DNA of 60,298 nt, taken from the NCBI GenBank assembly GCA_902801765.1, contig CADCJO010000005.1:1-60298 (forward strand). Direction: 5' to 3'. Source of the stretch: an uncultured Eubacteriales bacterium. Lineage in GTDB: Bacteria > Bacillota > Clostridia > Christensenellales > Aristaeellaceae. Made by a program: the position numbers and the translations under genes. Of this stretch, positions 16,100-45,077 are shown one piece after another; within the stretch, counting starts at the first letter, position 1, and the number at the start of each line of letters is the position of its first letter. The notes under the pieces were generated by a model that saw only the letters and a program-made list of their open reading frames with translations, was not told the DNA's origin and made no database searches.

Positions 16100-16912
16100 T
16101 CATGGCCGCGTTTTGGGCAGGGTGTGAAGGATGCGGCGGGCTTCCTCCGGAGTTGCGGCCTCCAGACCCATGGCATGAATGAGCTGCACCAAGCGCTCCA
16201 CCACCTGCCAATTATATTGGGCGTATTCGCTGGGAGCCAGGTAAGCGCTGTCCTCAAAGCCGATGCGCACCACGGACGCGCCCAGCGCCATGGCCCCGGC
16301 CAGGAAATCCCAGTTGTCCCGTCCGTAATGGGTCACGCCCCAGCGGGCGTCCGCGGGCACGGCGGAGCGGAACGCGGTCAGGCAGGTCATGTCTGGCTGC
16401 ATACCGCCCTGGTGACCGAACACCAGGTTGTAAAAAATGGGGCGGCGGTAGGGCGTGCGCTGAGCGCTGCGCTCGATGTTGTAGATCATGCCGATATCGA
16501 ACACTTCCACCTCGGGAATGATGCCCCTGTCATAGCTTTGCTTGGCGCAGTAATCGATGTCGGCATCCGTATTCACATATAACGCGCCGTTCAAGTTGGT
16601 GCTGCCGCCGTTCAGGGAGGAGCTTTCCACCCGCCAGTAGTTCAGCGGATGGCAGCGTTCCTCGATGGTCATGCTGGAAATGCCTCCGGTGGAGGCCTGC
16701 ACCACGACGTCGGTGCGTTTCAGGATCTCTTCAAAGGTGTCGATGAATTCAGCCGTATCCGGGGTCAGGCTTCCATCCGGGCGGCGGCAGTGCAAATGGC
16801 ACATACCCGCGCCTTTTTCCACGCATTTTTTCACGTCCTCCGCCAGGGCGATTTTATCAATGGGCGTTCCGGCCTTCACCGGAGCCAGGGAAATAATAAT
16901 TTTTCGGGACAT
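16100..16912 (-). CDS. Beta-keto acid cleavage family enzyme (BKACE, DUF849)
   Basis: A 270-residue zinc enzyme of the family whose founding member Kce condenses acetyl-CoA with 3-keto-5-aminohexanoate and cleaves it to acetoacetate and a new acyl-CoA. The zinc motif CHLHCRRPDG (His39, His41), PEVEVFD and the late ligand Glu220 in VRIGFED are all present. Members act on many different beta-keto acids, so the substrate is open. It is the last gene of the long operon, 18 bases after the DUF1537 kinase, and its own RBS is GAGGAGG. Together with that kinase and the racemase-fold gene it suggests degradation of a sugar acid. Confidence 0.88.
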   Translation of the reverse strand: MSRKIIISLAPVKAGTPIDKIALAEDVKKCVEKGAGMCHLHCRRPDGSLTPDTAEFIDTFEEILKRTDVVVQASTGGISSMTIEERCHPLNYWRVESSSLNGGSTNLNGALYVNTDADIDYCAKQSYDRGIIPEVEVFDIGMIYNIERSAQRTPYRRPIFYNLVFGHQGGMQPDMTCLTAFRSAVPADARWGVTHYGRDNWDFLAGAMALGASVVRIGFEDSAYLAPSEYAQYNWQVVERLVQLIHAMGLEAATPEEARRILHTLPKTRP

Positions 16913-16930
16913 AGAACGCTCCTCCTCTCC

Positions 16931-18382
16931 TCAGCACAGGGTTTCCACGATAATCCGCAGCGTGTCCGCCCCGCCCACGTTGCCGGGGAAAATGACGTAG
17001 GACAGGCCGGGAAACAGGCTTTCTTTTCCCGTTTTCCATACGGGAATGCCGGGGGCCGCCTGGCCCAGCACCAGCGCTTTTTTCACCCGCAGGGCTTTCA
17101 CCCCCACGTCGCTGGACGTGATGCCGCCTTTGGCGATGAGGAACCGTGGCCGGAAGGACAGGGAAGAAACCACGCCCGTCAGCGCATTGGAAATATTCAC
17201 GGAGATTTCCAGCATTTTTTCCGGATTCATGCCCTCCGGCGCGATGAGCGTACGGCTGGTATAGACCACCGCTGTTTTCCCCTGCTTCATGGCTTCCTCG
17301 GCCAATGCGGTCACCCGCTTGGTTTCCTGCGCCAGGGCCCCTTCCCGGCTCCAGCCGCTGACGTCAAATTCAAGAAAGGACAGCGGAGCGGAGGATTCCC
17401 GCAGGCAGTTCAATTGATCTGTGGTTTTCTTCACATGGGAGCCCACAATCACAAGGCCGCCAAACGGTGAAGATACGTCGATCATTTCCTCCCGGGACAG
17501 CAGGGGCCGGTCCTCCACATGTCCGAATACCTTGGGCACCGCCGCGGCGCTGCGGAGCATGTAATGCCGCCCCTGCCGGATCAGGCGCATCAGCACCACG
17601 GCCAGGGCCATTACGTCCGTTTCTTCCAGGGCGTCGGCCACGATGTACCGATACCCTTTGGCGCTTTTCAGTTTTTCTTCCATCGCCTGCCATTGAAGGC
17701 CCCGAAGCTCCGCAAGAGAAAGCACGATCACCTGATCGGCCCGGATTCGTCCACCGGATTTTTCCTCAATATACTCCGGCAAATAGGAATGATGATAGCC
17801 AAAGGTCTTATCCCTGGCAAATTCCGTTTGGGCCGCGGGGGTCAGCTGATCCCCCTCCTTCACGTAATGCACGCCGTTCAGGGTAAAGCGTCCCCCTTCC
17901 CGGAAGAAGGGGCACAGTACCTCCCCGGCAAAGGCCGGATGGCCGTTTTCTTCCAAAGCCCGGCGCAGCGTTTCCGTTTCCAGGGGATAATGGCCTCGCA
18001 GGGTGGAATCTCCCCGGGAGATCACGGTAAGCGTTTTGCCGGCTTTCACGGCCGCCCGGCAGGCGTTTTCGGCGATTTCCTGGTGTGCCGCTTCCGTCTT
18101 TTCCGCGGAAAAGCTGCGGGAATTGGTGAGCACGAAAAATATACCGTCCTCCCGCATGGCGTCCGTCAGGGTATCTTCTTTCCAATCCGTGACCACGGGA
18201 ATATCGTGCACCGTCTGCACGCCGGTGGGGTCGTCGTCCAGCACCATGACCTGGCTGTGAAATCCGGCATACGCTTCATCGTACAGGCGGCGCACGGTTG
18301 TCCGGGCGTTTTCATCCGCCCACAGCTTTTCGCATTCCGCAAAGACTTCCGCCGCGTTCAGGGGCTTGAATTGTTCGTCCAC
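16931..18382 (-). CDS. Four-carbon acid sugar kinase family protein (DUF1537)
   Basis: A 483-residue ATP-dependent kinase. Relatives phosphorylate threonate or erythronate (DtnK/OtnK), 3-oxo-isoapionate or 3-oxo-tetronate. The N-terminal substrate domain shows VLDDDPTGVQ, FFVLTNSRSFS and ISRGDSTLRGHYPLE. The C-terminal nucleotide domain shows KGGITSSDVG and FPGNVGGADTL. The usual dehydrogenase and aldolase partners (PdxA2, OtnC) are absent, so its substrate is unusual or is supplied by genes outside the window. The start is GTG 18382, 9 bases after GGGAGG; the upstream ATG is out of frame. It begins 4 bases after the GH127 stop. Confidence 0.9.
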   Translation of the reverse strand: MDEQFKPLNAAEVFAECEKLWADENARTTVRRLYDEAYAGFHSQVMVLDDDPTGVQTVHDIPVVTDWKEDTLTDAMREDGIFFVLTNSRSFSAEKTEAAHQEIAENACRAAVKAGKTLTVISRGDSTLRGHYPLETETLRRALEENGHPAFAGEVLCPFFREGGRFTLNGVHYVKEGDQLTPAAQTEFARDKTFGYHHSYLPEYIEEKSGGRIRADQVIVLSLAELRGLQWQAMEEKLKSAKGYRYIVADALEETDVMALAVVLMRLIRQGRHYMLRSAAAVPKVFGHVEDRPLLSREEMIDVSSPFGGLVIVGSHVKKTTDQLNCLRESSAPLSFLEFDVSGWSREGALAQETKRVTALAEEAMKQGKTAVVYTSRTLIAPEGMNPEKMLEISVNISNALTGVVSSLSFRPRFLIAKGGITSSDVGVKALRVKKALVLGQAAPGIPVWKTGKESLFPGLSYVIFPGNVGGADTLRIIVETLC

Positions 18383-18386
18383 GTTC

Positions 18387-20336
18387 TCATACCTCCCGCC
18401 AGGCCAGGGGCATCCAGATCAGCATTTCGCCCCGTCCCCGGTTATCCCAGGCGTAATAAGGAATCAGCCGCGCTTTCACCGTTCGGAGCGGTGCCGCATC
18501 CAGGGTGCGGTACAGGCTTTCCCGTTTTTCAGCAGGCACATCCCGGCACAGCAGGGTGGTTTCATAACCCGGCACCGTGCGCCCGTCTATGGTCAATTCT
18601 GTTTTCTCAAACTTGGGGTTTGCGGGCAGCATCAGATCCTGCAGGCTTTCCGCCTCCGGCGCGTCCAGGTATTCCAGGCAGTACACCAGGGGCCCCGCTT
18701 CCACGGCGGCCCGGCCCCGATCCTCCTCGATCATCCCGTTTCCCACGGTGAGCCGCGGCGCGGCGGGCAGGCGCAGCGCGCAGGAGAAGCCCTCCCCCGC
18801 CGGAACAGCAACGTACGATCCGGCCTGTAATTCCTGCGTTTTCCCAGCAAGGATCAATTCAGCCCCTTCCGCCCACGCGGGAATGCGCAGATGCAGAAGG
18901 AAAGGAATCCCGTTGCTGTCTTTTACGGTAAAGAGAATTTTTCCATCGAAGGGATAATCCGTTTCCTGGCACAGCGTAAAAGCTGCGCCGTTTTTCAGGG
19001 CAAAGGCCGCCGTGCTTGCCCCATACAGTCCCGTCCACACCCCGTTTTCATCCGCGGCGTAGGCGTATTCCGCGGTCTGCGCCAGGGTGCGGGCCAGATT
19101 GGGCGGGCAGCAGTAGCTGGTGATGTATTCGGTGCGCTCCTGTCCCCACAGCAATTCATAGGCCAATTCCTTGGCCCGCTCCAGCATGTTTTCGTAGAAG
19201 AATTTTTTGCCGTTCAGGCTGATGCCCGCCATGTTTACGTTCAGGATCATGCGCTCCAGCATGTCCATATACTCCGCCCGGGGCTCCATCAGGAACATGC
19301 GCCAGGCCCAGAACACCCCGCCCAGGGACGCGCAGGTTTCGTTGTAGGCGGTAATATTGGGCAGCTGATATTCGTAGCCGTAGGCCTGGTGCACCAGCTG
19401 GTGATGAAAGAAATTGCCGTAGGGCGACGCGCCGTTGTACAGCGCCCCGCAGCCGCCGGTCAGGTACATTTTCCGGGTAACCAAATGGTTCCATACGGAC
19501 GTCAATACTTCCCGGTAATCCGTGTCGCCCGTTTCCATGTACAGGTCGGTGACCCCGGCGTAAAGGTAATTGGCCCGAACGGCGTGGCCTACGATTTTCC
19601 GGTGCTGCTTTAAGGGCAGCCGGTCCTGGTTGTCATCCAGCCCGTTTTTCACGGAATCCCGCAGCTCCACCGCCAGCTTCGCCAGATCCAGATATTCCTT
19701 CTTTCCGGTGGTGCGGTACAGCTCGATCAGGCCCATGTAGTGGGAAGGACACACGGCGGTTTTCACTTCGCCCGTGCGGGCGGCTTCCTCATACAGATTC
19801 TTCAAATACCCGGCGGTTTTTTCGGCCACCTTCAAAAAGCTGTCCTTCCCCGTCAAGCGGTAGTACAGGCAGGCGGAGGTAAACATGTGGCCCATGTTGT
19901 ACACCTCAAAATCGTTGATGTCCCCCTGCCGCATGGGGCCCTTTCCCTGCTTTTCGCCGATGATCTGCTTGGTGGAAAGATAGCCGTCGGGCTGCTGGGC
20001 CCGGGAAAACAGAGCGATATAATCCTCCAGCTGGTCCAACAGCTTTTCATTCCCGGCCTTTACGGCTGTATAAACCGCGGCCTCGAACCACTTGTAAAAA
20101 TCTCCGTCGCCAAAAACGGTGCCGTCGAAGTCCCCTTCCGCTTCCCCGGCGGCGATGCGGAAATTTTCCACTACATGGCTGATGTCCTTTTCCTCGAACA
20201 TGCGCTGCAGGTGGGGCACGGTGACGGCGGCCACGGTGTCGAACCTTTCCTTGTACAGGCCGCCCGTCCACGCTGCGTCTTTGTAAGGGATCGCGGACAG
20301 CCGGGCGTAAGGAGAACGGGAAGTATCGGTGATCAT
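18387..20336 (-). CDS. GH127 beta-L-arabinofuranosidase-like enzyme
   Basis: A 649-residue (alpha/alpha)6-barrel hydrolase without a signal peptide, acting in the cytoplasm. The zinc and catalytic set known from Bifidobacterium HypBA1 is present: Glu333 and Cys335 in YNETCASL, and Cys409-Cys410 in SYCCPPNLART, one of which is the unusual cysteine nucleophile. Relatives of GH127 also release other L-arabinose or branched sugars. Length matches the family. The ATG at 20336 overlaps the racemase stop as ATGA, so it is translationally coupled to the sugar-catabolic genes. In this locus it would remove terminal beta-L-arabinofuranose from a pectic side chain. Confidence 0.92.
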   Translation of the reverse strand: MITDTSRSPYARLSAIPYKDAAWTGGLYKERFDTVAAVTVPHLQRMFEEKDISHVVENFRIAAGEAEGDFDGTVFGDGDFYKWFEAAVYTAVKAGNEKLLDQLEDYIALFSRAQQPDGYLSTKQIIGEKQGKGPMRQGDINDFEVYNMGHMFTSACLYYRLTGKDSFLKVAEKTAGYLKNLYEEAARTGEVKTAVCPSHYMGLIELYRTTGKKEYLDLAKLAVELRDSVKNGLDDNQDRLPLKQHRKIVGHAVRANYLYAGVTDLYMETGDTDYREVLTSVWNHLVTRKMYLTGGCGALYNGASPYGNFFHHQLVHQAYGYEYQLPNITAYNETCASLGGVFWAWRMFLMEPRAEYMDMLERMILNVNMAGISLNGKKFFYENMLERAKELAYELLWGQERTEYITSYCCPPNLARTLAQTAEYAYAADENGVWTGLYGASTAAFALKNGAAFTLCQETDYPFDGKILFTVKDSNGIPFLLHLRIPAWAEGAELILAGKTQELQAGSYVAVPAGEGFSCALRLPAAPRLTVGNGMIEEDRGRAAVEAGPLVYCLEYLDAPEAESLQDLMLPANPKFEKTELTIDGRTVPGYETTLLCRDVPAEKRESLYRTLDAAPLRTVKARLIPYYAWDNRGRGEMLIWMPLAWREV

Positions 20337-21004
20337 GCCATCAATCCTTTCGCCTGCAGCGCTTTTTTCAGTTCAATCGCGCCAAACCGGGGGCTGGACA
20401 GGGTGGGTTTGCCCACCGCTTTTTCAATATCCTGTTCCACATAAGCCATGGAACCCTGGGCCAGCACGATCACATCCACCTGATCGGCGATTTTTTCCGC
20501 CGCGCCGATGAGCAAGGCGCGGAATTGCTCCTGATCCAAGTTGAAGGCGTCCACCAGGCCGTCCACCAGCTCCACATGCTTTCCCATTTCCCGGGCGGTG
20601 CGCAGAATGGTGTTCTTGGTGGGCTCCAGGGTGGTGGGCAGCGTAGCCAGCACGCCCACGCGGCTGCCCAGCCGGGCCGCCTCCCGGCACATTTCTTCAT
20701 CAATACGCACCACCGGCACCCCGATATACCGGGCGGCTGGCTGGAACGCGTCCGCCACCTCGCCCACGGAGGAGCAGATGTTCAGGATCGCGTCCGCACC
20801 CTGCTGCACGGCGGCGGCATACATACCGATGAGCCTTGCCGCCGCGCCGGGGGTCACATAACCCGCCTGGCGCACTTCCCCAATGATGGTGGGGTCGGCG
20901 CTGCTGATCATTTCCGCGTCGGGGCCAATGTTTTTTCTGACTTCCTGTTCCACCAGTTCGATCAGTTCCGGGGTCGTGCCGGTATACACCAATGCTGCTT
21001 TCAT
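20333..21004 (-). CDS. Asp/Glu racemase superfamily protein with one catalytic Cys
   Basis: A 223-residue protein of the fold shared by aspartate/glutamate/hydantoin racemases and arylmalonate decarboxylase. The first catalytic cysteine is present (Cys77 in LNICSSVGE). At the second site the expected Cys is replaced: VLAQGSMA, with Gln183. A two-base racemase therefore seems unlikely; an isomerase or decarboxylase reaction is possible. It lies between the FGGY kinase (16-bp gap) and GH127 (4-bp overlap) and precedes the DUF1537 and DUF849 genes. RBS AAAAGGAG before ATG 21004. Function is unassigned. Confidence 0.8.
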   Translation of the reverse strand: MKAALVYTGTTPELIELVEQEVRKNIGPDAEMISSADPTIIGEVRQAGYVTPGAAARLIGMYAAAVQQGADAILNICSSVGEVADAFQPAARYIGVPVVRIDEEMCREAARLGSRVGVLATLPTTLEPTKNTILRTAREMGKHVELVDGLVDAFNLDQEQFRALLIGAAEKIADQVDVIVLAQGSMAYVEQDIEKAVGKPTLSSPRFGAIELKKALQAKGLMA

Positions 21005-21020
21005 GGATTGTCACTCCTTT

Positions 21021-22487
21021 TTATAGAATCCTGCGAACGGCTTCCTTCCATCCCGCATGTTTTTCCTGCCGGGTGGTTTCGTCCATCCGGGGTTCATAAC
21101 GGAAGTACCGGTTGTTTTCAAAAATGCTGTCATCGTACAGGCCCAAGGCCATGCCCGCGGCGTAAGCCACGCCCACGCAGGACAGCTCCTCCGCCTCCGG
21201 CACCAGCACGGGGCTTTTCAGCATATCGCTTTGAAACTGCATGAGCCACTTGTTCCGGCTGGGACCGCCGTCCACCCGAAGTTCGATTTCAGGGATATTC
21301 GCTTCCTGCTGCATCAATTGCACGATGTCGGTGATCTGGTAGGCGATAGCCTCCAGCCCGGCCCGCACCAGCTCGGCCCGGCCCGTGGTGCGGCTCATGC
21401 CGATAAACGCGGCGGAAACGTCGCTGCGCCAATAAGGCGCGCCCAGACCGGAGAAAGCGGGCACCAGATAGGTTTTGTCGCTGGGATTGGCCTGCTCCGC
21501 CAGCGCCTGGGATTCGGCGGCGGTTTTCAGCAGTCCCGCCTGATCCTTGAGCCAGGTCACGATGGCTCCGGAATAATTCACGTTGCCTTCCAGAATATAG
21601 TTGACCTGCCCTTTCAGCTTCCAGGCCAGGGAGGTGACGATGCCGCGCTGGGACAGGATGGGCTTTTCCCCGATGTTCATCATGATGGAGGAACCGGTAC
21701 CGTAGCCCACCTTCAGCATCCCTTCGGTCAGGCAGCCCTGGGCAAACAGCGCGGCGTGCGAATCGCCCATAACGCAATGAATGGGAACAGGGGCGGGCAG
21801 AGCGCCGCCAAAATCGGTGTATCCGAACAGCCCGTCCGAGTCCGTCAATTGCGCCATGCAGCAGGCGGGAATGCCGAACAGCGACAGCAGTTCCTCATCC
21901 CATTGCAGGGTATGGATATTGAAAAGCTGCGTGCGGGAAGCGTTGGAATCATCCGTGCGGAATTCTTTTCCCCCCGTCAGGCGGAACACCACATAGCTGT
22001 CCATGGTGCCGCAGCAGATTTCGCCCTTCTCCGCCCGTTCTTCGATCCCCGGCACGTTCCGCATGATCCAGGCCAGCTTGGCGGCGGAAAAATAGGGCGA
22101 CAGTTTCAGCCCGGTTTTCTGCTGCACGGTTTCCGCGTGATCCTCCAGGCTGTCGCAGATCGCCGCGCCTCGGGCGCATTGCCAGACCACGGCGTTGTAT
22201 ACCGGTTTTCCGGTCGCCCGCTCCCACATCACCGATGTTTCCCGCTGGTTGCTGATGCTCACCGCCGCAATCTCTTTCGGGTCCACGCCCGTTTTTTCGA
22301 TCAGTTCCGGAATCAGAGCCAGCAGGTTTTGATAGATTTCCTCCGGATCATGCTCCACGTAGCCCCGCTCGTCGATGATCTGGCGGTGGGGCCTGTCCAC
22401 CCGCAGGCAGATATGGCCCTGGCTGTCAAACAGCAGGGCCTTGGTGCTTTGGGTGCTTTGATCGATCGCTATCAGATAGGACGCCAT
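21021..22487 (-). CDS. FGGY carbohydrate kinase, glycerol-kinase-like (candidate D-apulose kinase)
   Basis: A 488-residue sugar kinase close to glycerol kinase: IAIDQSTQSTKALLFD, Arg82-Glu83 in SNQRET and Tyr132 in PYFSAAKLAWI match the glycerol pocket. The usual GDQQAALFGQ reads GDSHAALFAQ (Asp242, Ser243, His244), which suggests a larger or different substrate. ATG 22487 is used, just after the TGA of the transketolase C subunit, with GGAAAGGGTGAG as RBS. An FGGY kinase beside an isomerase and a two-subunit transketolase is the composition of the non-oxidative D-apiose pathway, where AplK phosphorylates apulose. Glycerol, xylulose or another ketose remain alternatives. Confidence 0.85.
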   Translation of the reverse strand: MASYLIAIDQSTQSTKALLFDSQGHICLRVDRPHRQIIDERGYVEHDPEEIYQNLLALIPELIEKTGVDPKEIAAVSISNQRETSVMWERATGKPVYNAVVWQCARGAAICDSLEDHAETVQQKTGLKLSPYFSAAKLAWIMRNVPGIEERAEKGEICCGTMDSYVVFRLTGGKEFRTDDSNASRTQLFNIHTLQWDEELLSLFGIPACCMAQLTDSDGLFGYTDFGGALPAPVPIHCVMGDSHAALFAQGCLTEGMLKVGYGTGSSIMMNIGEKPILSQRGIVTSLAWKLKGQVNYILEGNVNYSGAIVTWLKDQAGLLKTAAESQALAEQANPSDKTYLVPAFSGLGAPYWRSDVSAAFIGMSRTTGRAELVRAGLEAIAYQITDIVQLMQQEANIPEIELRVDGGPSRNKWLMQFQSDMLKSPVLVPEAEELSCVGVAYAAGMALGLYDDSIFENNRYFRYEPRMDETTRQEKHAGWKEAVRRIL

Positions 22488-22494
22488 CGTGTGC

Positions 22495-23430
22495 TCACCC
22501 TTTCCATATTTCAAGAACGGTTTTGACGATGCCCGAGCCTGTGAGCCCGTAATATTCAAACACTTCTTTGGAGGTGCCGGTAATCACGGGACTGTCCGGC
22601 AAGGCCAGGTTGATCACCTTTTTCGGGTCGTTGGCGCTGATTACCTGGGCCACCATGGAGCCCAGCCCGCCGAATGGCGCGTGCTCCTCCACAGTGACGA
22701 TCAGGCGCTTGCCTTTGGCGGCTTTCAGCAATCCTTCTTTGTCCAGGGGCTTCACGCAGTACATGTCCAGCGCGCCGGTGGAAATGCCCTGGCTGTTCAG
22801 CAGCTTGGCCGCTTCCTGGATGGGGCGTACCATTTCGCCGCAGGCCACCAGCAGCACGTCCGTACCCTCGGACAGCACGGTGGCCTTGTTCATTTCAAAG
22901 GGCACGTTGTTTTCTTCGTACACATCTTCCACCGGGTTCCGGCCCAGGCGGATGTAAGCGGTTTGCGTATCCTGTAAAAGAGCTTCAAACAGCTTTCGGG
23001 TCTGGTGGCGGTCAGAAGGCAGATACACCCGCATACCGGGGATGGCGCTCATGGCGGCGATGTCCTGGGCGGAATGATGGGTCATACCCAGGGCCCCATA
23101 GCTGACGCCGCCGGAGATGCCCACCAGCTTCACATTGGTGTTGGAATAGGCGCAGTCTACCTTGCACTGCTCGTAGCTGCGGGTGCTGATGAACGAGGCG
23201 GGAGACACAGCAAAGGACTTTTTTCCGCAGGAGGCCAGGCCGGCGGCGATGCTGACCAGGTTCTGCTCCGCAATGCCCACTTCCACGAACTGCTGGGGGT
23301 AAGTATCGGCGAAGGAGGTCATGCTGCCGCTGCCCCGGCTGTCGCTGCACAGCACGACAACATTTCTGTCTTTCGCCGCCGCTTCCTTCAGTACTTCGCA
23401 CATGATGGCCCGATTGGGAATCTTATTCAC
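22495..23430 (-). CDS. Transketolase, C-terminal subunit
   Basis: A 311-residue subunit with the pyrimidine-binding and C-terminal domains of transketolase. VEVGIAEQNLVSIAAGLA carries the catalytic glutamate that activates thiamine diphosphate; GALGMTHHSAQDIA follows. It pairs with the N-terminal subunit, whose gene overlaps its start by 8 bases. Such split enzymes occur widely in Firmicutes and archaea. Apulose-4-phosphate transketolase (AptAB) has the same two-chain form and would give dihydroxyacetone phosphate and xylulose 5-phosphate. General pentose-phosphate use is the alternative. Confidence 0.9.
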   Translation of the reverse strand: MNKIPNRAIMCEVLKEAAAKDRNVVVLCSDSRGSGSMTSFADTYPQQFVEVGIAEQNLVSIAAGLASCGKKSFAVSPASFISTRSYEQCKVDCAYSNTNVKLVGISGGVSYGALGMTHHSAQDIAAMSAIPGMRVYLPSDRHQTRKLFEALLQDTQTAYIRLGRNPVEDVYEENNVPFEMNKATVLSEGTDVLLVACGEMVRPIQEAAKLLNSQGISTGALDMYCVKPLDKEGLLKAAKGKRLIVTVEEHAPFGGLGSMVAQVISANDPKKVINLALPDSPVITGTSKEVFEYYGLTGSGIVKTVLEIWKG

Positions 23431-24253
23431 GGAGCAGCGCCTCCTTCCGTTCTTTCAGTTCCTTGCTGATCGCGGCGTATTCCTCTGCGTTGGGCAAATG
23501 ATGGTGCCAGGAAGCCTTGTTTTCCATGAGCACGGAGCCCTTGCCCTTGACGGTGTTGGCGATGATCACCGTGGGCATGCCCTTTGTATTCTCCGCTTCG
23601 TCAAAAGCGGCGTTCAATTGATCCACGTCGTTGCCGTCCTGCACGTCGATCACATGCCAGTCAAACGCGGCAAAGCGTGCGTGCAGATCGTGATGGGCCA
23701 TCACGTCCTCCGTGCTGCCGGAAATCTGCAAATGGTTGCGGTCGATGACGGCACACAGGTTGTCCAGCTTGTAGTGGCCCGCTGCCATCGTCCCTTCCCA
23801 CACGGAACCCTCCGCCAGTTCACCGTCGCCCATCAGGGTATACACCCGATAATTCTTTTGATCCATCCGGCCTGCCAGCGCCATGCCGACACAAACAGAA
23901 AGGCCGTGGCCCAGGGAGCCGGAATTCATTTCGATGCCGGGCAGGGTGTTGTGGGGATGGCCGATGTATTCGCTGCCGAATTTGGAGAACTTCGCTTTGA
24001 CTTCTTCAATATTCAAAAAGCCCTTATCGCACAGCACGGCGTACAGCGTTTCCACACAATGGCCCTTGCTGAGCACAAAGCGATCCCGGTTCGGGTCATT
24101 CTGCTTTTCGGGCGACACATTCATGCGGCTGTACAGCGTCAGCATGATTTCCATGCTGCTCATGTCCCCGCCGATGTGCCCGCCCCCGCCGGACACGATG
24201 ATGTCCAGCACATCCTGGCGGAGATCATAGGCTTTTACTGCTAAAGGATTCAT
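23423..24253 (-). CDS. Transketolase, N-terminal subunit
   Basis: A 276-residue subunit that binds the diphosphate of thiamine diphosphate: GGHIGGDMSSMEI, LSKGHCVETLYA, and the GDG-N motif MGDGELAEGSVWEG ending in VIDRN. The start is ATG 24253 after GAGAGG. A longer reading frame runs into the upstream palindromic repeat and is not coding. It overlaps the C-terminal subunit by 8 bases, so the two chains are made in step. The isomerase gene lies 125 bases upstream, separated by the hairpin repeat. Confidence 0.9.
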   Translation of the reverse strand: MNPLAVKAYDLRQDVLDIIVSGGGGHIGGDMSSMEIMLTLYSRMNVSPEKQNDPNRDRFVLSKGHCVETLYAVLCDKGFLNIEEVKAKFSKFGSEYIGHPHNTLPGIEMNSGSLGHGLSVCVGMALAGRMDQKNYRVYTLMGDGELAEGSVWEGTMAAGHYKLDNLCAVIDRNHLQISGSTEDVMAHHDLHARFAAFDWHVIDVQDGNDVDQLNAAFDEAENTKGMPTVIIANTVKGKGSVLMENKASWHHHLPNAEEYAAISKELKERKEALLRE

Positions 24254-24276
24254 AACAACCTCTCTATTCTTTTCTT

Positions 24277-24340
24277 CTGGGGGAAACCGCTCTTTGCTGT
24301 CCAAAGAGCTGTTTCCCCCAGACCCCTTTCCGAGAAAGAC
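24277..24340. repeat. Palindromic dispersed repeat, copy 1
   Basis: A hairpin (arms 24277-24297 and 24301-24321, with a few mismatches) has outer arms CTGGGGGAAAC and GTTTCCCCCAG, followed by a tail similar to ACCCCTTTCCGAGAAAG. The same element occurs at 55549-55613 and 56382-56445. Here it lies inside the transcript between the isomerase and transketolase genes, where it could tune mRNA stability. Confidence 0.85.
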
Positions 24341-24378
24341 GCATTGGGATATGTTTTTATTGATTGAGCTGATGGTGC

Positions 24379-25803
24379 TCAAACCTCGTCAAAAGTTACG
24401 TCTTCACCGTGCAGATACGCCTTCACCTTGTCCTCAATAGGATCGTACAGGTCAGGCTTGACGCCGATGTACTTGCAGGCCTCATACACGATGGGCACAA
24501 TGTCGCCGTGAATGGCTGCCACGTGATGGATGTAGGGGCCTTCCACCACCTTGGCTTCCAGGCGCTTTAAGTTGTTCACTTCCACCCATACATAGGTGCC
24601 TCTCGTCCAGGGGCCGTCGATGCCCCGGGCGTGCCCCAGCAGGATGGAATACTCGCCCTCGTCGCCGTCAAAGCGCAGCAGGCTCATGAGGCCGTGCTTG
24701 GCCTCGGCGGATACCGCGCCGTTCTCCGGGAAGGCCACGGGCACGCAGATGGTGGGCTTTTCCTTGGCGACGGAAATGGGCCAGGGGCCGCAGTGCTGCA
24801 AAAGTTCGCCGTTGTCGTTGTCGGGGTGCCGCACCGTCCAGTCGCTGAACATGACGCGCCGCTCGTTCATGCTGGCGGCTTCCGCCATGAGCTGGGAGAT
24901 AGCGCCGTGAATGTCCGTTTCGCAGACCACGGGAATCCCTTCCTCGTTCAGCAGGCTGTTGGCGGCGCAGGGCATGATGTGGATTTCATCCTGTAAGGCG
25001 TTCCAGCACTGAATGGCGATGGCGTTGCAGCCGTATTTTTCCGCCAGGGCTTTCATGGCAACCTTCAGTTCCGCCACGTTCGCCAGATAATTGTCCTCGA
25101 TTTTGCAGATCATGTTTGCCTTGCAGTAATCGACGACCTTCTGAACCTCCGTTTTTTCTTCCCGCCATTTCTTCATTTCGGCGTACAATTCAGGCAGCGG
25201 GATCGGGGCCAGTTGGATATTGAATTTTTCCAGCAGTTCCCCTTCATTGCACATGGTGGACCAGAAATCGAAGGGACGGGGGCCGATCTGCAGAATGCGC
25301 GTGTGGCGGAACACCTTCACCACGTTGCACACGGCCAGGAAATCTTTTATGCCCCGCTCAAATTCGGGGTCTTCCAGGTTGCAGTTGTTCATATAGGTGA
25401 AGGGCACCCGGAAGCGGCGCAGCACCTTGCCGGTGGCGAACAGGCCGCACTGGCTGTCCCGCAGTCTCATGCCGTTGGCATCGGGCCGCTCGTCCCGGGG
25501 CCCCCACAGCAGCACCGGCACGTTCAGGGCCTTCGCCAGCCTGGCGCACTCATATTCCGTGCCGAAATTGGCGTGTGGAATGAACAGGCCGTCCACCTTT
25601 TCCCGCTGGAATTTTTCGATGATTTTTTCCAGCCCCGCATCGTCGTAGAGCAATCCTTCTTCATTGACGTCGTCAATGTCCACAAAGTCGATGCCCAATT
25701 CCTTTAAGCGATTCGCGGTCAGCTTCCGGTATTCCACGGCGGCCGGGGCGCTGAAAATAGCCCGGCGGGTGGGGGCATAGCCCAGTTTGATATGTGCGCT
25801 CAT
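24379..25803 (-). CDS. Sugar isomerase, L-fucose/L-arabinose isomerase family
   Basis: A 474-residue metal-dependent aldose-ketose isomerase. The C-terminal half carries the metal-binding region VCETDIHGAISQ (Glu295, Asp297) and a late histidine in AAIHGDIVP, as in the FucI/AraA group. The N-terminal half (DGLFIPHANFGTEYECARLA) fits the fucose isomerase-like domain. It has no signal peptide. GH78 lies 33 bases upstream. With the transketolase and FGGY kinase downstream it would supply the ketose; apiose to apulose is the attractive reading. L-fucose or L-rhamnose released by the GH29 or GH78 enzymes are alternatives, though no matching aldolase is present. Confidence 0.8.
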   Translation of the reverse strand: MSAHIKLGYAPTRRAIFSAPAAVEYRKLTANRLKELGIDFVDIDDVNEEGLLYDDAGLEKIIEKFQREKVDGLFIPHANFGTEYECARLAKALNVPVLLWGPRDERPDANGMRLRDSQCGLFATGKVLRRFRVPFTYMNNCNLEDPEFERGIKDFLAVCNVVKVFRHTRILQIGPRPFDFWSTMCNEGELLEKFNIQLAPIPLPELYAEMKKWREEKTEVQKVVDYCKANMICKIEDNYLANVAELKVAMKALAEKYGCNAIAIQCWNALQDEIHIMPCAANSLLNEEGIPVVCETDIHGAISQLMAEAASMNERRVMFSDWTVRHPDNDNGELLQHCGPWPISVAKEKPTICVPVAFPENGAVSAEAKHGLMSLLRFDGDEGEYSILLGHARGIDGPWTRGTYVWVEVNNLKRLEAKVVEGPYIHHVAAIHGDIVPIVYEACKYIGVKPDLYDPIEDKVKAYLHGEDVTFDEV

Positions 25804-25835: not shown

Positions 25836-28610
25836 TTATTCATTCAATTGATAAGTGACCGTCCATGTGCCGGAGCCGGTTTCGGCCTGCCATTGGCGCT
25901 GGCCGTTCCGGACAAATCTCAGCTCGCTTTCCGGATTTTCCGCGCCTTTTTCCAGGATGATGGACGCGGAAGCGTTCACCGGCACCCGCGCCGTTAACGT
26001 GACTTTTCCTTCGTCCCGCGTCCAATGAGAAGATACGGGGCCATATACGCTGTCGTATTCCCCCTGAACCCAGGCAAGGCCTCCGCCGGTCTGAGGCGCG
26101 ATGACGGCATGGCGGTAACCGGGCTGAGTCTCATCAATTTCCAGGCCCGCCGCCGCCCGGTACAGCCATTCGCCAATGGCTCCGTAGGCGTAATGATTGA
26201 AGGAGTTCATGTCCGGGCTCCACATGGCGCCGTCAGGCTTCAAGCCGTCCCAATGCTCCCAAATGGTGGTAGCCCCCGCCTTGACCTGATACAGCCAGGA
26301 GGGGAAATCCTCTTTCAGCAAAAGATCATAGGCTTCCTTTTTGCAGCCGTTCTGGCTGAGCGCGTGGCAGAAATAGGGCGTGCCCACAAAGCCGGTGACC
26401 AGATGACCGTTTTCTTTTTTCAGCAATCGCTTCAGCCCTTCCACCGTGCCGGGGATGCCCTTATCCGGAATCAAATGGAAGTATAGGGCCACAATGTGGG
26501 CCGTCTGGGTCTGCACGGTCATGACGCCGTTTTCGTCCAGGAAAGCGCTTTGGAACTTGTCCACAATTTTTTCATAAAGCGCCGTATATTCCCGGGCAAG
26601 CGCGTTCCTTTTCAAAGCCTTGCAGATTTTCACGAACAGGCCTGTGGAATATGCGAAATAGGCGGTGCAGGTGAGATCGTTGGGCGTCGCGCCCCAATAG
26701 CTGCCGTCCTCCGCGTCCAGGGCCACCCAATCGCCGAACTGCAGCTTATAATTCCAGATATAGTCCTTGGCGTGGTCCCGCATGAAATCGATCCAGGCCT
26801 TCATGCTGTCAAACTGATCTTTCAGGATTTGGGTGTCCCCGTAGGTCAGATACAGTGTCCAGGGCAGAATCACCGCCACGTCCGCCCAGGCCGCGGCGGA
26901 ATGGATGCCCTGGCTGAGCAGCCAGTCCTGCGTGGCGGGGAAGTATTGCAATTGGTTGGGCACCATATGGGGCACGCCGCCTCCGGCTTTTTGCTGATCG
27001 ATGGCCACGTCCCGCAGCCATTTGCGGTAGAAAGCGTAGGTATTGCGCAGGAAAGAGGCGGTGCGGCAGAAAATCTGAGCGTCTCCCGTCCAGCCCATGC
27101 GCTCGTCCCGCTGGGGGCAGTCCGTGGGAATGTCCAGGAAATTGCCCCGCAGGCTCCATTCGATGTTGCTTTCCAATTGATTGAGCAGGGGATTGGAACA
27201 GGCAAAACGCCCGGTTTTCGCCATCTGGGAATGAATGACGCAGGCGGCAAAATTCTCTTTTTTGATTTCCTCCGGCCATTCCTGGATCAAAGCGTAGCGG
27301 AAGCCCTGGAAGGAAAAGCGTTCATCATAGGTGATCGGCTGATCATCGCGGCAGATATACCGGATTTCCGCCAGCGCTCCCCGCAGATTGTCAAAGTACG
27401 CGTTGCCTGCCGTGTCCAGCGTTTCAAAGCAGCGAAGATGCGCCAGGGCCCCCGCCCTGCCCCGCACAGTAAAGCGCACGTGACCCGTCAGGTTCTGGCC
27501 GAAGTCCAGCACGGTTTCTCCCTTGGGGGTTTTCAGAATTTCCCGCACCGGCAGTTCACACAGGATTTTCGGCCGGGAAGCGGCCTGCGGCGTAAGGATG
27601 CCCAGGGGCACGCTGACGGTATCCACGGGCCGCCACAGAATGTCTTTCGGGCGGTATTCCTGGGCGAAGCGGCGCTGGGCAGCCTTTTCCTCGTCGGTGT
27701 AGCTTTCTTTCAGGCGATTCAGCAAAGGGGGAGCAGGCTGCTCGTTCCGCGCTCCGCCCCTTTGCGGCGCAAAGCCCGGCGCGTTCCAGCCAGGCTGCTC
27801 CAGCCGGGCGTCGTACCGTTCGCCGTCATAAATCTCGGAGAAGATCACGGGCGACGCGCAGCCCAGCCAGCTTTCATCCGTGACGACGGTTTCCTCCGTT
27901 CCGTCCTGATAGCGAATAGTCAATTGGGCCATCAGCGCGGTGCGGTTCCCATAGGTGCAGCGCTCGTGCACAAAGCCCATCATGCCCTTGTACCAGCCCG
28001 CGCCTACATGGGCTCCCAGCACGTTTTCACCCTGCCGGAGAAGCCTGGTCGCTTCCCAGGTCTGGTAGCACAGATGCTCGTGATAGCTGGTCCAGCCGGG
28101 CAGGAACTGTTCTTCGTTTACCTGTTCGCCGTTTATATAGACGTGGTACAGGCCCAGCGCGGTGGCGCACACATACGCTTCCTTCACGGGCTTTTCCATG
28201 CGCCAGCTTTTACGCAGATAGGTGCCTTTGGAATTGACCCAGTCGTTTTCTGTTTCTGCGGTAATGAATTTACCTTTCCAGTGCCCGCCTGCCATCCCGG
28301 TGATAAAGGAAGCTGTTGCCCAGTCGCTTTCTTCCGTTCCCGCCCATACCTTTGCCCGGATAAAATAATACCGGCAGGGCAGCAGGGAAACATCCGGCAG
28401 CGGCACGGAACGGGATTCGTCGCTCTCTACCCTTTTGCTGTCGTACAGGGGATGTTCAAAAGTTTCCGTTTCAGCAAGCTGCCATTGATAGGCGCTTTGC
28501 CGCACGTTCCGCCCGTCGCTTTCCAGCGCCCAGCCAAGCTGCGGCATTTCCTCCGCCCCCAGGAGCGGCTGATCCTGGTAATCCAGCAGGATTTTTTGAA
28601 TGGCAATCAC
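25836..28610 (-). CDS. GH78 alpha-L-rhamnosidase
   Basis: A 924-residue inverting exo-rhamnosidase with the full family layout: N-terminal beta domains, a carbohydrate-binding sandwich (AYVCATALGLYHVYINGEQV region, residues 145-165) and an (alpha/alpha)6 barrel. The acidic signature DCPQRDERMGWTGDA (residues 497-511, with Asp502, Glu503 and Asp510) and the general base Glu785 in TTIWEHWDGL are intact. No signal peptide, so it works inside the cell. Its ATG overlaps the GH42 stop as ATGA. Rhamnose removal from rhamnogalacturonan or flavonoid-like glycosides is expected. Confidence 0.95.
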   Translation of the reverse strand: MIAIQKILLDYQDQPLLGAEEMPQLGWALESDGRNVRQSAYQWQLAETETFEHPLYDSKRVESDESRSVPLPDVSLLPCRYYFIRAKVWAGTEESDWATASFITGMAGGHWKGKFITAETENDWVNSKGTYLRKSWRMEKPVKEAYVCATALGLYHVYINGEQVNEEQFLPGWTSYHEHLCYQTWEATRLLRQGENVLGAHVGAGWYKGMMGFVHERCTYGNRTALMAQLTIRYQDGTEETVVTDESWLGCASPVIFSEIYDGERYDARLEQPGWNAPGFAPQRGGARNEQPAPPLLNRLKESYTDEEKAAQRRFAQEYRPKDILWRPVDTVSVPLGILTPQAASRPKILCELPVREILKTPKGETVLDFGQNLTGHVRFTVRGRAGALAHLRCFETLDTAGNAYFDNLRGALAEIRYICRDDQPITYDERFSFQGFRYALIQEWPEEIKKENFAACVIHSQMAKTGRFACSNPLLNQLESNIEWSLRGNFLDIPTDCPQRDERMGWTGDAQIFCRTASFLRNTYAFYRKWLRDVAIDQQKAGGGVPHMVPNQLQYFPATQDWLLSQGIHSAAAWADVAVILPWTLYLTYGDTQILKDQFDSMKAWIDFMRDHAKDYIWNYKLQFGDWVALDAEDGSYWGATPNDLTCTAYFAYSTGLFVKICKALKRNALAREYTALYEKIVDKFQSAFLDENGVMTVQTQTAHIVALYFHLIPDKGIPGTVEGLKRLLKKENGHLVTGFVGTPYFCHALSQNGCKKEAYDLLLKEDFPSWLYQVKAGATTIWEHWDGLKPDGAMWSPDMNSFNHYAYGAIGEWLYRAAAGLEIDETQPGYRHAVIAPQTGGGLAWVQGEYDSVYGPVSSHWTRDEGKVTLTARVPVNASASIILEKGAENPESELRFVRNGQRQWQAETGSGTWTVTYQLNE

Positions 28611-30643
28611 GGCAGTTCACCCCCGTCCTTGTCCAGCCTGAGAATCCACACGTCCCGACCCCGGATGGTTTGCCTCCCGGATACGCATTCATCCGTGATC
28701 CGGTTCGTCAGTTCCGCTTTGCCGAAGTCCACCTGGGCGTCTTCGGCGTTATGGTTGATCACAAATACTGTGGTTCCCTTTTCGCCCGTTCGGCGGGTGA
28801 TTTCGATGCCGGGATCGGCGGAGAATAGCCCATTCAGCCCTGTATCGGCGCAGATCGCATGCAGCAGATCCGCAAGGAAAGCATCCTCCGGCTGGGTGCC
28901 GATATAATAGGCCGTCCCTTTGCCAAAATGATTTTTGGCCGCGCAGGGCATTCCCGCATAGAAATCGCTTTCATAATGCGCCAGCGGCTGTGCGGAGCGG
29001 CAATGCAGCAAATCGCAAAGGAAGGTGCATTCGTAGCGTTCCCGGGGGAAACCCGCGCTTCCTTCCATCACCATCCGGTTGTGTTCATCCGGCCGCAGAG
29101 CATCCGTTTCCTCCACCCAGACGCCCAGCACGTCCCGCAGCTTGCCGGGGTATTCCCCGAACACGCACCGGTCGTTTTCATCCGCCAGGCCGCTCATGAC
29201 GGTGGCGATCAGCGTGCCGCCATTTTTTACATATTCGGTCAGGCGTTCCGCGACCCCGGGCTTTGTCATGTACAGCATGGGCGCCACCACCAGGGAGTAA
29301 CCGGCATAATCCGTATCGGCGGCGGGGTTCACAATATCCACCGGGATGTTTTGATCGTGAAGGGGCTTGTAATACCGGGCCAGGGTTTTCAGATAATCCA
29401 TGTCCTTGCTGGGGCCGCTGGCAAGCTCAAGGGCCCACCAGTTGTTCCAATCCATGAGCATAGCCGCCTTCGCCGGGGTGCGGGCCCGGAGGAAGGAATC
29501 GCCCAGCGCTTTCAGCTCATGACCTAACTTTTCCGCCTCCCGGAACACCCGGGTGTTTTCGTGCCCCGCGTGGCTGATGATGGCCCCGTGGAATTTTTCC
29601 TGCCCGGCCACGGATTGGCGCATCTGGAAAAACAAGCAGGTGTCCGCCCCGTGGGCCATGGCCTGGTAGGACAAAAGGCGCACTTCCCCGGGCCGCTTTA
29701 ATTTATTGTAGGGCTGCCAGTTCTGCTGGTTGGGAGACTGCTCGGTGAGCACGAAGGATTGCCCGCCCTTGAGTCCCCGCATAATATCATGCTTCATGGC
29801 GACGAAATGGGGCGGGTCCTGGGGCCAGGGGTAATTGTCCCAGCCCACCACGTCCATTTCTTTGGTGAAGGTGAACTGGTCCAGCTTCTTGATAAAGCCG
29901 CTCATGTTGGTCAGGATGGGAATATCGGGGTTGTAGCTTTTCAGCACGTCGTATTCATTGCGGAAGCATGCGGCAGTGGAATCCGTCAGAAAACGCATGT
30001 AATCCAATTGAATGGCGGGATTGAAGCGGTAATCGTCGTTCAGCTCCGTGGGCAGGGTCACTTCCTCAAAGGAATATACCGTGCGCCCCCAGAAGGAAGT
30101 ATGCCACCGTTCGTTCAGTCCTTCCACGCTGCCGTAGCGCCTGCGCAGCCACAGCCGGAATTTGGCCTGGCAGTTGGGGCAGTAGCAGCTTGTTCCGTAT
30201 TCGTTGCTCACGTGCCACATGGCCAGGGCGGGGTGATGGGCATAGCGCTTCCCAAATTCATGGGCGATGGCGGCGGCCCGCTCCCGGTATTTCAGGCTGT
30301 TTACGCAGAAAAACACCCGCATCCCGTGGGTACGCTTTCTGCCCTGAATATCCACCGGCAGCACCTCGGGATACCGGGTGGACAGCCAGGCAGGCTGAGC
30401 GGTGGTGGGAGTAGCCAGGCAGACATAAATGCCGTTTGCCCAGATCGTGTCGATGATTTTGTCAAGCCAATCAAAATTGTACACGCCCTCGTCCGGCTCC
30501 AGCTTGGCCCAGGAAAATACCGGCAATGTCAGCAGATTGATGCCCGCCTTTTTAAACAGGCGCATATCCTCCCGCAATGTTTGTTCATCCCATTGGTCGG
30601 GGTTGTAGTCCCCGCCGTAATAGATCCGGTCCGCCTGCTTCAT
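28607..30643 (-). CDS. GH42 beta-galactosidase
   Basis: A 678-residue retaining beta-galactosidase. Catalytic acid Glu148 lies in WHVSNEYG and the nucleophile Glu301 in FVLTEQSPNQQNW. The zinc cluster typical of the family is complete (Cys113, Cys153, Cys155, Cys158). A trimerisation and C-terminal beta domain follow. It is cytoplasmic and translationally coupled to GH78. The LacI-type regulator ends up upstream with a 15-bp gap, so regulator and enzymes share a transcript. Galactan or arabinogalactan side-chain fragments are likely substrates; some members act on beta-L-arabinopyranose. Confidence 0.95.
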   Translation of the reverse strand: MKQADRIYYGGDYNPDQWDEQTLREDMRLFKKAGINLLTLPVFSWAKLEPDEGVYNFDWLDKIIDTIWANGIYVCLATPTTAQPAWLSTRYPEVLPVDIQGRKRTHGMRVFFCVNSLKYRERAAAIAHEFGKRYAHHPALAMWHVSNEYGTSCYCPNCQAKFRLWLRRRYGSVEGLNERWHTSFWGRTVYSFEEVTLPTELNDDYRFNPAIQLDYMRFLTDSTAACFRNEYDVLKSYNPDIPILTNMSGFIKKLDQFTFTKEMDVVGWDNYPWPQDPPHFVAMKHDIMRGLKGGQSFVLTEQSPNQQNWQPYNKLKRPGEVRLLSYQAMAHGADTCLFFQMRQSVAGQEKFHGAIISHAGHENTRVFREAEKLGHELKALGDSFLRARTPAKAAMLMDWNNWWALELASGPSKDMDYLKTLARYYKPLHDQNIPVDIVNPAADTDYAGYSLVVAPMLYMTKPGVAERLTEYVKNGGTLIATVMSGLADENDRCVFGEYPGKLRDVLGVWVEETDALRPDEHNRMVMEGSAGFPRERYECTFLCDLLHCRSAQPLAHYESDFYAGMPCAAKNHFGKGTAYYIGTQPEDAFLADLLHAICADTGLNGLFSADPGIEITRRTGEKGTTVFVINHNAEDAQVDFGKAELTNRITDECVSGRQTIRGRDVWILRLDKDGGELP

Positions 30644-30658
30644 GGCATTTTCCCCCGT

Positions 30659-31672
30659 TTATCTCGTTTTCACGCTGTCCCGCATCACCAGTTCCACGCC
30701 CACTTCGGTTTTGATAAAGCAGGCGCTTTGCTTTTCCGGCAGGGCAAAGAGGGTGTGCACCACGGTTTGCCCCAGCTCCTGCCGGAATACATGCACGGTG
30801 CTTAATTGGGGCGTGCAGGCCAGGCAGATGGAGGTATCGTCCATGCCGATGATGGACACGTCCTCCGGCACCTGGTAGCCCGCCTCCCGGATGGCCCGCA
30901 TACAGCCGATGGCCATAATGTCGTTGCCGGCAAAGAAGGCTTCCGGCAGGCGCTTCCCCGCCTGGAGCAGGGCTTTCATATCCTCATAAGCGCCGTTCAT
31001 GGTGGGCCGCACCGGCCAGATTTTCTCGTTCTCCAGGGAAAGGCCGTACTTGTTCAGGCCCTCCGTTAATCCCCGCTGCCGATCCGTCATATTATTGAAA
31101 CCGATGCTGCTGGTAATGTGCTGAATGTCCCGGTGTCCGGCGGCGTACAGCGCTTTGGCGGCCAGGTACCCCGCCTGCCAGTTGTTCATCACCACGGAAT
31201 GCACCTTCTGCAGCCGGAACAGATTATCCAGCACCACCATAGGCGAACGGAAATCGGAGAACTGCTTCAGCTCTTCTTCGTTCATTTCCGTCCCCAGCAA
31301 TATGATACCGGCGCATTCCTCGCTGCGGAAGGCGTTGATTTGATTGACATAATCCGCGTCCTTCTTGGCGCTTACATGGCTGATGAGCAGCTCCAGCTCC
31401 ATACGATGGCACTCCAGCTGAATGCTTTCGATCAGCTCGGAAAAAAACTGGGTGTCCATCACCACCATGCCGTGGGAACGGAAAATAATCAGGCGGACGT
31501 GGCGGCTGGCTTTCGTGCTTTCCCGGCTCAGCTGATACCCCATTTCCTGAGCAATGGATAAAATATGTTCCTGCACCGCTTTGCTGACGCCCGCCCTTCC
31601 GTTCAGCGCGTTACTGACCGTGGCGGGAGAAACGTTGGCGCGTTTGGCAATATCTCTAAGGGTATACTTCAT
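30659..31672 (-). CDS. LacI-family transcriptional regulator
   Basis: A 337-residue repressor with an N-terminal helix-turn-helix and hinge (YTLRDIAKRANVSPATVSNALNGR) and a periplasmic-binding-protein-like sensor domain (VHSVVMNNWQAGYLAAKAL, IIGMDDTSICLACTPQLSTV). The start is ATG 31672, an MKYTLRD opening typical for the family. It is the first gene of the 31.7-16.1 kb operon and is expressed from a consensus promoter just upstream. It likely senses a sugar from the imported glycan and controls this operon, perhaps also the neighbouring ones. Confidence 0.92.
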   Translation of the reverse strand: MKYTLRDIAKRANVSPATVSNALNGRAGVSKAVQEHILSIAQEMGYQLSRESTKASRHVRLIIFRSHGMVVMDTQFFSELIESIQLECHRMELELLISHVSAKKDADYVNQINAFRSEECAGIILLGTEMNEEELKQFSDFRSPMVVLDNLFRLQKVHSVVMNNWQAGYLAAKALYAAGHRDIQHITSSIGFNNMTDRQRGLTEGLNKYGLSLENEKIWPVRPTMNGAYEDMKALLQAGKRLPEAFFAGNDIMAIGCMRAIREAGYQVPEDVSIIGMDDTSICLACTPQLSTVHVFRQELGQTVVHTLFALPEKQSACFIKTEVGVELVMRDSVKTR

Positions 31673-31712
31673 AGGAAAAGCCCCTCTCATCTTGGTTCTT
31701 GCTTTCCTCTAC

Positions 31713-38718: not shown

Positions 38719-38792
38719 GGGGAGTCCTCCTTTACATATTTAATTTCACCGCGCAAACGCGGAAAAATCCAGCTTTCATTTTGGGCTGCCTT

Positions 38793-39710
38793 TTATCCTT
38801 TGACCGCGCCGACCTGCATTCCCTGCTCGAAATACTTCTGAATGAAGGGATAGATCAGCAGCAGCGGGGCGATGGTGGCCACCAGGCAGGCATATTGCAC
38901 GTTCTTGGGGTTCACCTGGCCGTTGGTCAGCATGATGTTGGCGTCGCCGCCGAAGGAAGAGCCCATGGAATTGGACGTGAACACGATGGAGCGCAGGATC
39001 ATCTGGATGGGATGGCGGGAAGCGTCCTTGATATAGAGCAGGGCGCTGAAATAGCTGTTCCACATGCCCACGATGGCAAACAGGGAGAAGGAAGCGATCA
39101 GCGCCTTGGACAGGGGCAGGATCACGCTGATCAGGATGCGCACCTCCCCCGCGCCGTCAATCAGCGCCGCTTCGCGGATCTCGTGGGAAATGCCCTTGAA
39201 GAAGGAGCGGTACATGAACACGTTCCACGCGGATACGCACCCCGGCAGCACCAGCGCCCAGGTGGTGTTCATCAGGCCCAGATTGCGGATGTTCAGGTAG
39301 GAGGGAATGGTGCCGCCGCTGAAAAACATGGTGATCAGCATGATCACGCTGATCAGGCCCTTCAGCTTGAATTCCTGCACAGACAGGGCGTAGCCCAGGC
39401 AAGAGGTCAGCGATACGTTCAGCACCGTGAACAGCAGGGCGTACCAAATCGTCCACAGATAGGAAGTGTAAATCGTGGCCTTGGAGAACACGATTTCATA
39501 ACCCTTTACGTTCAGCTCCTGGGGAATCAGGCCCACCGCGCCGCGGGTGATCATACGGCTGGAGCTGAGCGATACGGCGATCACATGCAGGAAGGGATAC
39601 AGGATGATGACGCAGAAAAGCACCAGCAGCAGAATCAGCGTGATGTCGAAGGAAATATTGCCGATCCGGATTTTGTTTTTCGGCTTGGAAGAAATCGTTT
39701 TCTGGCTCAT
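38793..39710 (-). CDS. Sugar ABC transporter permease, YtcP type, importer 2
   Basis: A 305-residue permease with about six helices, EAA loop REAALIDGAGEVRILISVIL and the typical end KYFEQGMQVGAVKG. It pairs with the LplB-type protein encoded 12 bases upstream. RBS GAGGAGG before ATG 39710. It belongs to the same CUT1 subgroup as the permease at 13470 but is a separate system. Confidence 0.93.
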   Translation of the reverse strand: MSQKTISSKPKNKIRIGNISFDITLILLLVLFCVIILYPFLHVIAVSLSSSRMITRGAVGLIPQELNVKGYEIVFSKATIYTSYLWTIWYALLFTVLNVSLTSCLGYALSVQEFKLKGLISVIMLITMFFSGGTIPSYLNIRNLGLMNTTWALVLPGCVSAWNVFMYRSFFKGISHEIREAALIDGAGEVRILISVILPLSKALIASFSLFAIVGMWNSYFSALLYIKDASRHPIQMILRSIVFTSNSMGSSFGGDANIMLTNGQVNPKNVQYACLVATIAPLLLIYPFIQKYFEQGMQVGAVKG

Positions 39711-39722
39711 ACCGGCACCTCC

Positions 39723-45065: not shown

Positions 45066-45077
45066 GGAGGTATGATC

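Follow-up and report, generated by a model that had tools for sequence, protein, structure and literature searches.

A putative D-apiose catabolic cassette with a variant isomerase in a pectin-degradation locus of an uncultured Eubacteriales bacterium

Apiose is a rare branched sugar and a constituent of plant cell walls. Is its use encoded in a 60,298-nucleotide stretch of DNA (hereafter the window) from an uncultured Eubacteriales bacterium of the Aristaeellaceae (assembly GCA_902801765.1, contig CADCJO010000005.1)? The window carries four consecutive minus-strand genes (21021-25803) for an isomerase, the N and C chains of a split transketolase and an FGGY kinase. A sequence-only reading had described these genes as a candidate non-oxidative apiose cassette and had noted a GH140 enzyme, from the family of known apiosidases, in the same locus. 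Both the four genes and the GH140 gene are confirmed at the positions given in Table 1, and the proposed function is supported by the transketolase tree, the kinase residues and the gene association. By comparison the case is strong, and the four genes very probably constitute the non-oxidative (transketolase) D-apiose route; we infer every reaction on apiose from the make-up and clustering of the genes, from phylogeny, active-site residues and predicted fold, and from the association with apiosidase-like and importer genes. The pathway itself is already known, and the cassette is best described as a likely version of it with a variant isomerase.

The four-gene cassette and its enzymes

The gene order in the window is isomerase, N chain, C chain and kinase. 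The two transketolase genes overlap by 8 bases, the C chain and kinase genes lie 7 bases apart, and 125 bases separate the isomerase from the N chain, provided that the latter starts at 24253; this spacing is operon-like. That start and the kinase start at 22487 are the probable ones, homologue lengths and upstream sequence favouring them over longer open reading frames (ORFs). A scan of named genomes with the window isomerase gave at least 584 relatives, of which the best 80 were kept, with flanks reaching at most 10 kb. In 68 of these 80 loci all four genes have relatives in the stretch examined, so the grouping is not due to chance; contig ends cut some, but not all, of the other 12. By title the 80 relatives are nearly all from Bacillota, with one from Spirochaetia, and the carriers include Blautia, Faecalicatena, Monoglobus, Anaerovibrio and Listeria. 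A LacI-family gene is present in 65 of the loci. Several kb separate the transketolase from the kinase in L119, L121, L123, L136, L144, L146, L176, L189 and L192, and importer-type genes occupy this gap in L136 (DUF2291 at 9966) and L189 (permease at 16932).

On its phylogeny the two-chain transketolase is assigned to the AptA/AptB lineage. The sequence-only reading had suggested trees with AplK and AptA/AptB as a check, and for the transketolase the outcome agreed with its proposal: among 44 joined N and C chains, the window cassette clade (33 rows) has the AptAB-type clade of the proteobacteria (8 rows) as its sister with support of 100/100, and two other split transketolases, together with the full-length transketolase that the genome separately encodes, fall outside this pair. 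The AplK and AptAB references in the trees are cluster relatives. A SYG...THH stretch is common to the window and AptAB-type chains, where a solved split enzyme has VGEDGASHQ. Two genomes (L262 and L263, from G201 and G266) have a second split transketolase with 37-41% identity to the window chains; it is some 7 kb away from GH140, on a different contig from the window-type isomerase.

For the kinase, the predicted substrate site points to AplK. At the positions aligned to residues 246 and 270 of E. coli GlpK, which we take to be residues that touch glycerol, S/S was found in all 43 isomerase- or transketolase-linked kinases, four AplKs included; the GlpK-like kinases have Q/F (6/7) or Q/T (1/7), and neither of the two xylulokinase-like outgroups has S/S. 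These rows were hand-picked and many are related, and one of the 43 (L078) is without a transketolase in the stretch examined. The tree of the same 52 kinases unites the 43 at 90/66 and separates the seven GlpK-like kinases at 83/92, bringing the window kinase together with AplK, although this tree by itself does not decide between AplK and GlpK. The substrate-site residues place the kinase with AplK against GlpK more clearly than the tree does. The kinase scores 556 against the GlpK equivalog TIGR01311, below the cut-off of 590, and passes a cut-off solely for the subfamily model NF000756 (566 against 498).

The isomerase is the variant member. An L-arabinose/L-fucose isomerase fold is predicted for it. 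A PDB sequence search with the isomerase alone gave no match at E 0.1, and a search with a 26-row isomerase profile gave L-arabinose isomerases alone below 0.01. The sequence-only reading had held that a grouping with L-fucose/L-arabinose enzymes would speak against apiose. Such a fold is indeed predicted, yet that expectation was mis-posed and the prediction refutes nothing, because the enterobacterial apiose-cluster isomerase is itself annotated in the L-fucose/L-arabinose family and aligns to that of the window, both belonging to one superfamily. The clusters of Rahnella, Sodalis and Klebsiella carry this extra gene, annotated as fucose isomerase or as L-fucose/L-arabinose isomerase family, and judging by its position it is presumably ApsI.

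The best comparative argument for a common function of the two isomerases came from the same bacterial family. Among 300 genomes drawn from it, nine have GH140 without a window-type isomerase, and six of these (G229, G166, G118, G098, G153 and G073) carry a transketolase and kinase together with an ApsI-type isomerase 43-45% identical to that of Rahnella; the G153 cassette is cut by a contig end, and no N chain was seen there. Five of the six cassettes adjoin a relative of the DUF5060/PF13204 protein of Monoglobus, and the sixth has GH140 about 8 kb away. As for the remaining genomes, a contig end in G272 holds a C chain and kinase, and in G048 and G148 the stretch around GH140 was without a cassette and the family-draw search gave no isomerase match. 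The two isomerase clades thus replace each other in otherwise similar cassettes, and their shared place suggests that they do the same job.

The following mechanism may be proposed. ABC systems would import pectic oligosaccharides, from which GH140 would free apiose intracellularly, a rhamnosidase such as the GH78 neighbour removing rhamnose from the apiose. The isomerase would convert D-apiose to apulose and the FGGY kinase would convert apulose to apulose 4-phosphate. Finally, glyceraldehyde 3-phosphate would accept a C2 unit through the action of the two-chain transketolase, and xylulose 5-phosphate and dihydroxyacetone phosphate would be formed.

Association with apiosidase-like and importer genes

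In a phylum-wide draw of 398 genomes, a relative of the isomerase was found in 28 (11 of the window type at 46% identity or more, counting the window's own genome, and a further 17 with at most 31%) and PF13204, the apiosidase-like domain, in 14. PF13204 occurred in 9/28 isomerase carriers against 5/370 other genomes (Fisher p = 2e-8; p = 1.6e-7 without the window's own genome), the nine comprising 4/11 window-type carriers and 5/17 others. With strong PF13204 matches alone (E 1e-40 or better) the counts were 6/28 against 5/370 (p = 3e-5), and for window-type carriers alone 4/11 against 5/370 (p = 4e-5), or 3/10 without the own genome (p = 7e-4). Leaving the window aside, the two genes lie on one contig in five of the nine, at distances of 0.4 kb (G576), 7 kb (G664), 12 kb (G528), 18 kb (G361) and 54 kb (G464), and on different contigs in G381, G434 and G436. 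The family draw, tallied by hand with contig-cut isomerase fragments included, gave 45 genomes with an isomerase of at least 70% identity, 32 with GH140 at 44% or more and 23 with both (p = 4e-15); with seven further GH140 matches at 33-37% (39 in total) the counts become 23/45 against 16/255 (p = 3e-12). All PF13204 searches were run under one setting.

Among the 80 named genomes, PF13204 was detected at E 1e-10 in 38 (25/50 plus 13/30), with a strong match in 17 (14 plus 3). Within the flanks, a strict GH140 profile found 4/80 neighbourhoods and the wider PF13204 set, which includes DUF5060-bearing proteins, 13/80. The DUF5060-type links weaken the counts, yet the association of the isomerase with apiosidase-like genes stays clear. 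In Monoglobus pectinilyticus a gene for a DUF5060/PF13204 protein comes directly after the same four genes. The Listeria monocytogenes NCTC7974 locus (L115, 4004-13086) holds LacI, an isomerase (70% identical), the N and C chains, the kinase, a beta-glucoside phosphotransferase system and an adjoining PF13204 gene, a cluster likely to serve the use of apiose glycosides.

Other carriers have importer genes. DUF2291, which belongs to the apiose importer of E. coli, was found in 37/80 loci and ribose-type importer genes in 37-38, with permeases up to 58% identical to that of E. coli; PF13204 and DUF2291 occurred together in none of the 80 loci in the stretch examined. From these gene contents, carriers would tend to take one of two courses, importing apiose in free form or cutting it from glycosides, and the window cassette looks like the glycoside-cutting kind. 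A strict split between the two was rejected in favour of a tendency only, as L079 combines importer-type genes with a PF13204 gene and G528 (L072) has a DUF2291 importer and PF13204 12 kb away.

Other substrates and comparison with known systems

Several observations weigh against the assignment to apiose. In the isomerase tree, built by a quick method without bootstrap under one setting, the window isomerase falls outside the ApsI clade, in a separate clade, its identity to the enterobacterial cluster isomerases being 28%. No transketolase partner accompanies the window-type relatives at 35-53% identity (L071, L074-L077 and L085-L097) in the stretch examined. A grouping of GlpK with the cassette kinases, the one alternative topology covered by the approximately unbiased (AU) test, was not rejected (p = 0.18). 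The window kinase also shares 43% identity with the GlpK-like protein of its own genome against 38% with AplK of E. coli SE15, and because the former outscores the latter, placement of the kinase by similarity score alone was rejected. The association counts and tests ignore shared ancestry. Furthermore, 42/80 named genomes have no PF13204 match at E 1e-10, only 3 of the 13 PF13204 loci match the window GH140 by BLAST, the other ten holding a DUF5060-type protein alone, and 30/80 loci have neither PF13204 nor DUF2291 in the stretch examined.

Three other substrates have to be considered. In an ordinary aldose route, the isomerase and kinase would turn L-arabinose, D-xylose or L-fucose into a ketose phosphate, and the transketolase would provide extra pentose-phosphate capacity; the predicted fold fits L-arabinose and L-fucose isomerases, the kinase is in the GlpK-like subfamily, and all three sugars occur in rhamnogalacturonan-II (RG-II). 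This is very unlikely, given that a full-length transketolase is already in the genome, that the four-gene unit has no epimerase or aldolase, and that both the apiosidase-like association and the interchange with ApsI-type isomerases would be left unexplained. The other branched sugar of RG-II is aceric acid. It could be imagined as the substrate of the cassette, since a candidate hydrolase of the GH127 family is encoded in the same run, two genes downstream of the kinase, and scores 735 bits against the aceric acid hydrolase model (cut-off 950). GH127, however, travels with racemase-like, DUF1537 and BKACE genes even where the cassette does not adjoin, and 79/80 named cassette loci have no GH127 relative in the stretch examined, which makes a role of the cassette in aceric acid use extremely unlikely.

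Just as improbable is a pathway of the sulfo-transketolase (sulfo-TK) type acting on sulfoquinovose or a similar sulfosugar. Sulfoquinovose isomerase is the sole NCBIfam match of the window isomerase, and the sulfo-TK pathway (SqvD, SqwGH) likewise joins an isomerase of this superfamily to a two-chain transketolase, SqwGH, in the available part of PMC11659671. The match of 119 bits is nevertheless far under the cut-off of 700, and the Rahnella apiose-cluster isomerase scores a similar 116 bits on the same model. The sulfo-TK route as described in that part of the source has no sugar kinase, the window transketolase groups with AptAB in a tree built without SqwGH, and Pfam gave no GH31 match in the 40 window proteins scanned (GH188 was not searched for).

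With apiose as the preferred substrate, the cassette resembles the apiose pathway of Pectobacterium and other enterobacteria (ApsI, AplK, AptA/AptB) in its isomerase superfamily, its GlpK-like FGGY kinase with S/S and its two-chain transketolase, and many of its relatives have the same importer of binding protein, DUF2291, ATPase and permease. It differs in the separate isomerase clade, in gene order and in lying in a pectin locus with GH140; the Pfam scan of 40 window proteins gave no DUF2291 match. The consulted sections of PMC13001218 name aplK, aptA, aptB and apsI, give the E. coli SE15 locus tags, report growth on apiose for three cluster-bearing E. coli strains and E. fergusonii, describe Escherichia as lacking apsI, and refer to Carter et al. 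2018 on the use of apiose by Bacteroides and Clostridia of the gut. The SE15 cluster shares the kinase (38%) and the N and C chains (40% and 36%) with the window; unlike it, the E. coli cluster contains two SDR oxidoreductases but lacks an isomerase, the growth reported in those sections being that of related strains. A separate isomerase lineage, its interchange with ApsI and an operon with RG-II glycosidases were not found in the literature searched, although Carter et al. 2018 may cover part of this.

The surrounding pectin locus and the GH127 block

Table 1. Positions of the cassette genes and of neighbouring features in the window.
Feature	Coordinates	Strand	Remarks
BKACE	16100-16912	-	
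DUF1537-type kinase	16931-18382	-	
GH127 aceric-acid-hydrolase-like protein	18387-20336	-	
Asp/Glu racemase family protein	20333-21004	-	
Candidate AplK-like apulose kinase	21021-22487	-	FGGY family, GlpK-like subfamily; longer ORF to 22559
Candidate AptB-like transketolase C subunit	22495-23430	-	
Candidate AptA-like transketolase N subunit	23423-24253	-	Start from homologue length and upstream sequence; longer ORF to 24382
Candidate D-apiose isomerase	24379-25803	-	L-fucose/L-arabinose isomerase superfamily, window-type clade
GH78 alpha-L-rhamnosidase family protein	25836-28610	-	Directly upstream of isomerase, same run; candidate for taking rhamnose off apiose
GH42 family protein	28607-30643	-	Same run as cassette
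LacI-family regulator	30659-31690	-	Same run as cassette
Candidate oligosaccharide importer	37030-40745	-	Permeases 38793-39710 and 39723-40745; putative binding protein 37030-38718
GH140 apiosidase-family protein	45072-46379	+	PF13204, 322 bits; signal peptide not apparent by eye

The whole region may be read as a pectin-degradation locus of the RG-II type (Table 1). The GH140 gene, 19 kb from the isomerase, has both the PF13204 domain and a close match to a solved GH140 enzyme (PDB 3kzs/5msy, 315 bits), the BT1020-type protein matches 5mqr (416 bits) and GH127 matches 5mqo (532 bits); 5msy is presumably BT1012 and 5mqo presumably BT1003. Also encoded are GH2, GH29, a SASA esterase and two ABC permease pairs with binding-protein-like neighbours. 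The product of 37030-38718 has a signal-like N-terminus and was taken as a binding protein; Pfam gave no match for it. BT1012 is a beta-apiosidase that works beside a rhamnosidase on Rha-Api, according to the available part of PMC7939467. These structure matches (GH140, BT1020-type and GH127) recall the RG-II enzymes of Bacteroides thetaiotaomicron (GH140 BT1012, BT1020 and GH127). The window differs from that system in having N-termini without a signal peptide, as judged by eye, in GH140, GH127, GH78, GH42, GH2 and GH29, in having ABC permeases, and in giving no match to Sus-type proteins among the 40 proteins scanned with Pfam. The counterpart of BT1020 is also two genes: the single-chain enzyme 5mqr is split over adjacent genes at 48576-50408 (5mqr 28-613) and 46410-48560 (642-1091).

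Directly downstream of the cassette kinase, in the same run, lies the GH127 block (16100-21004). Its racemase-like, GH127, DUF1537 and BKACE genes are kept together in 10/10 examined loci whose DUF1537 relative reaches at least 51% identity (the window, L098, L106, L156, L254-L256, L258, L259 and L261, where the racemase-like gene is contig-cut). In G229 the cassette is missing between the block and GH78, and in G201 and G266 the contig stretch of the block is without the cassette, the isomerase being on another contig; owing to this independence the block was treated as a second, separate module. L101, of the same genus, has GH127 without the other three block genes in the stretch examined. 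GH140 was found in 12/12 family genomes with a DUF1537 protein at 66% identity or more, nine of which were checked for the block; 11 genomes with DUF1537 at 45-52% were left out. A DUF1537 kinase is used by the oxidative apiose route. The DUF1537 gene was set aside as a sign of that route, since it accompanies GH127 and BKACE rather than the cassette. From its gene content the block may represent an undescribed route of aceric acid catabolism. It is possible, though rather doubtful, that one transcription unit would serve apiose and aceric acid, the two branched sugars of RG-II, the former through the transketolase route with a non-ApsI isomerase and the latter through the GH127 block.

The literature searched says little about how Gram-positive bacteria of the gut and rumen use apiose, and the marker set of isomerase clade, AptAB-like transketolase and S/S kinase is found in many Bacillota. 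The GH127 block gives a handle on the fate of aceric acid. With two isomerase lineages interchanged in one cassette, the assignment to apiose can be tested by a single enzyme assay.

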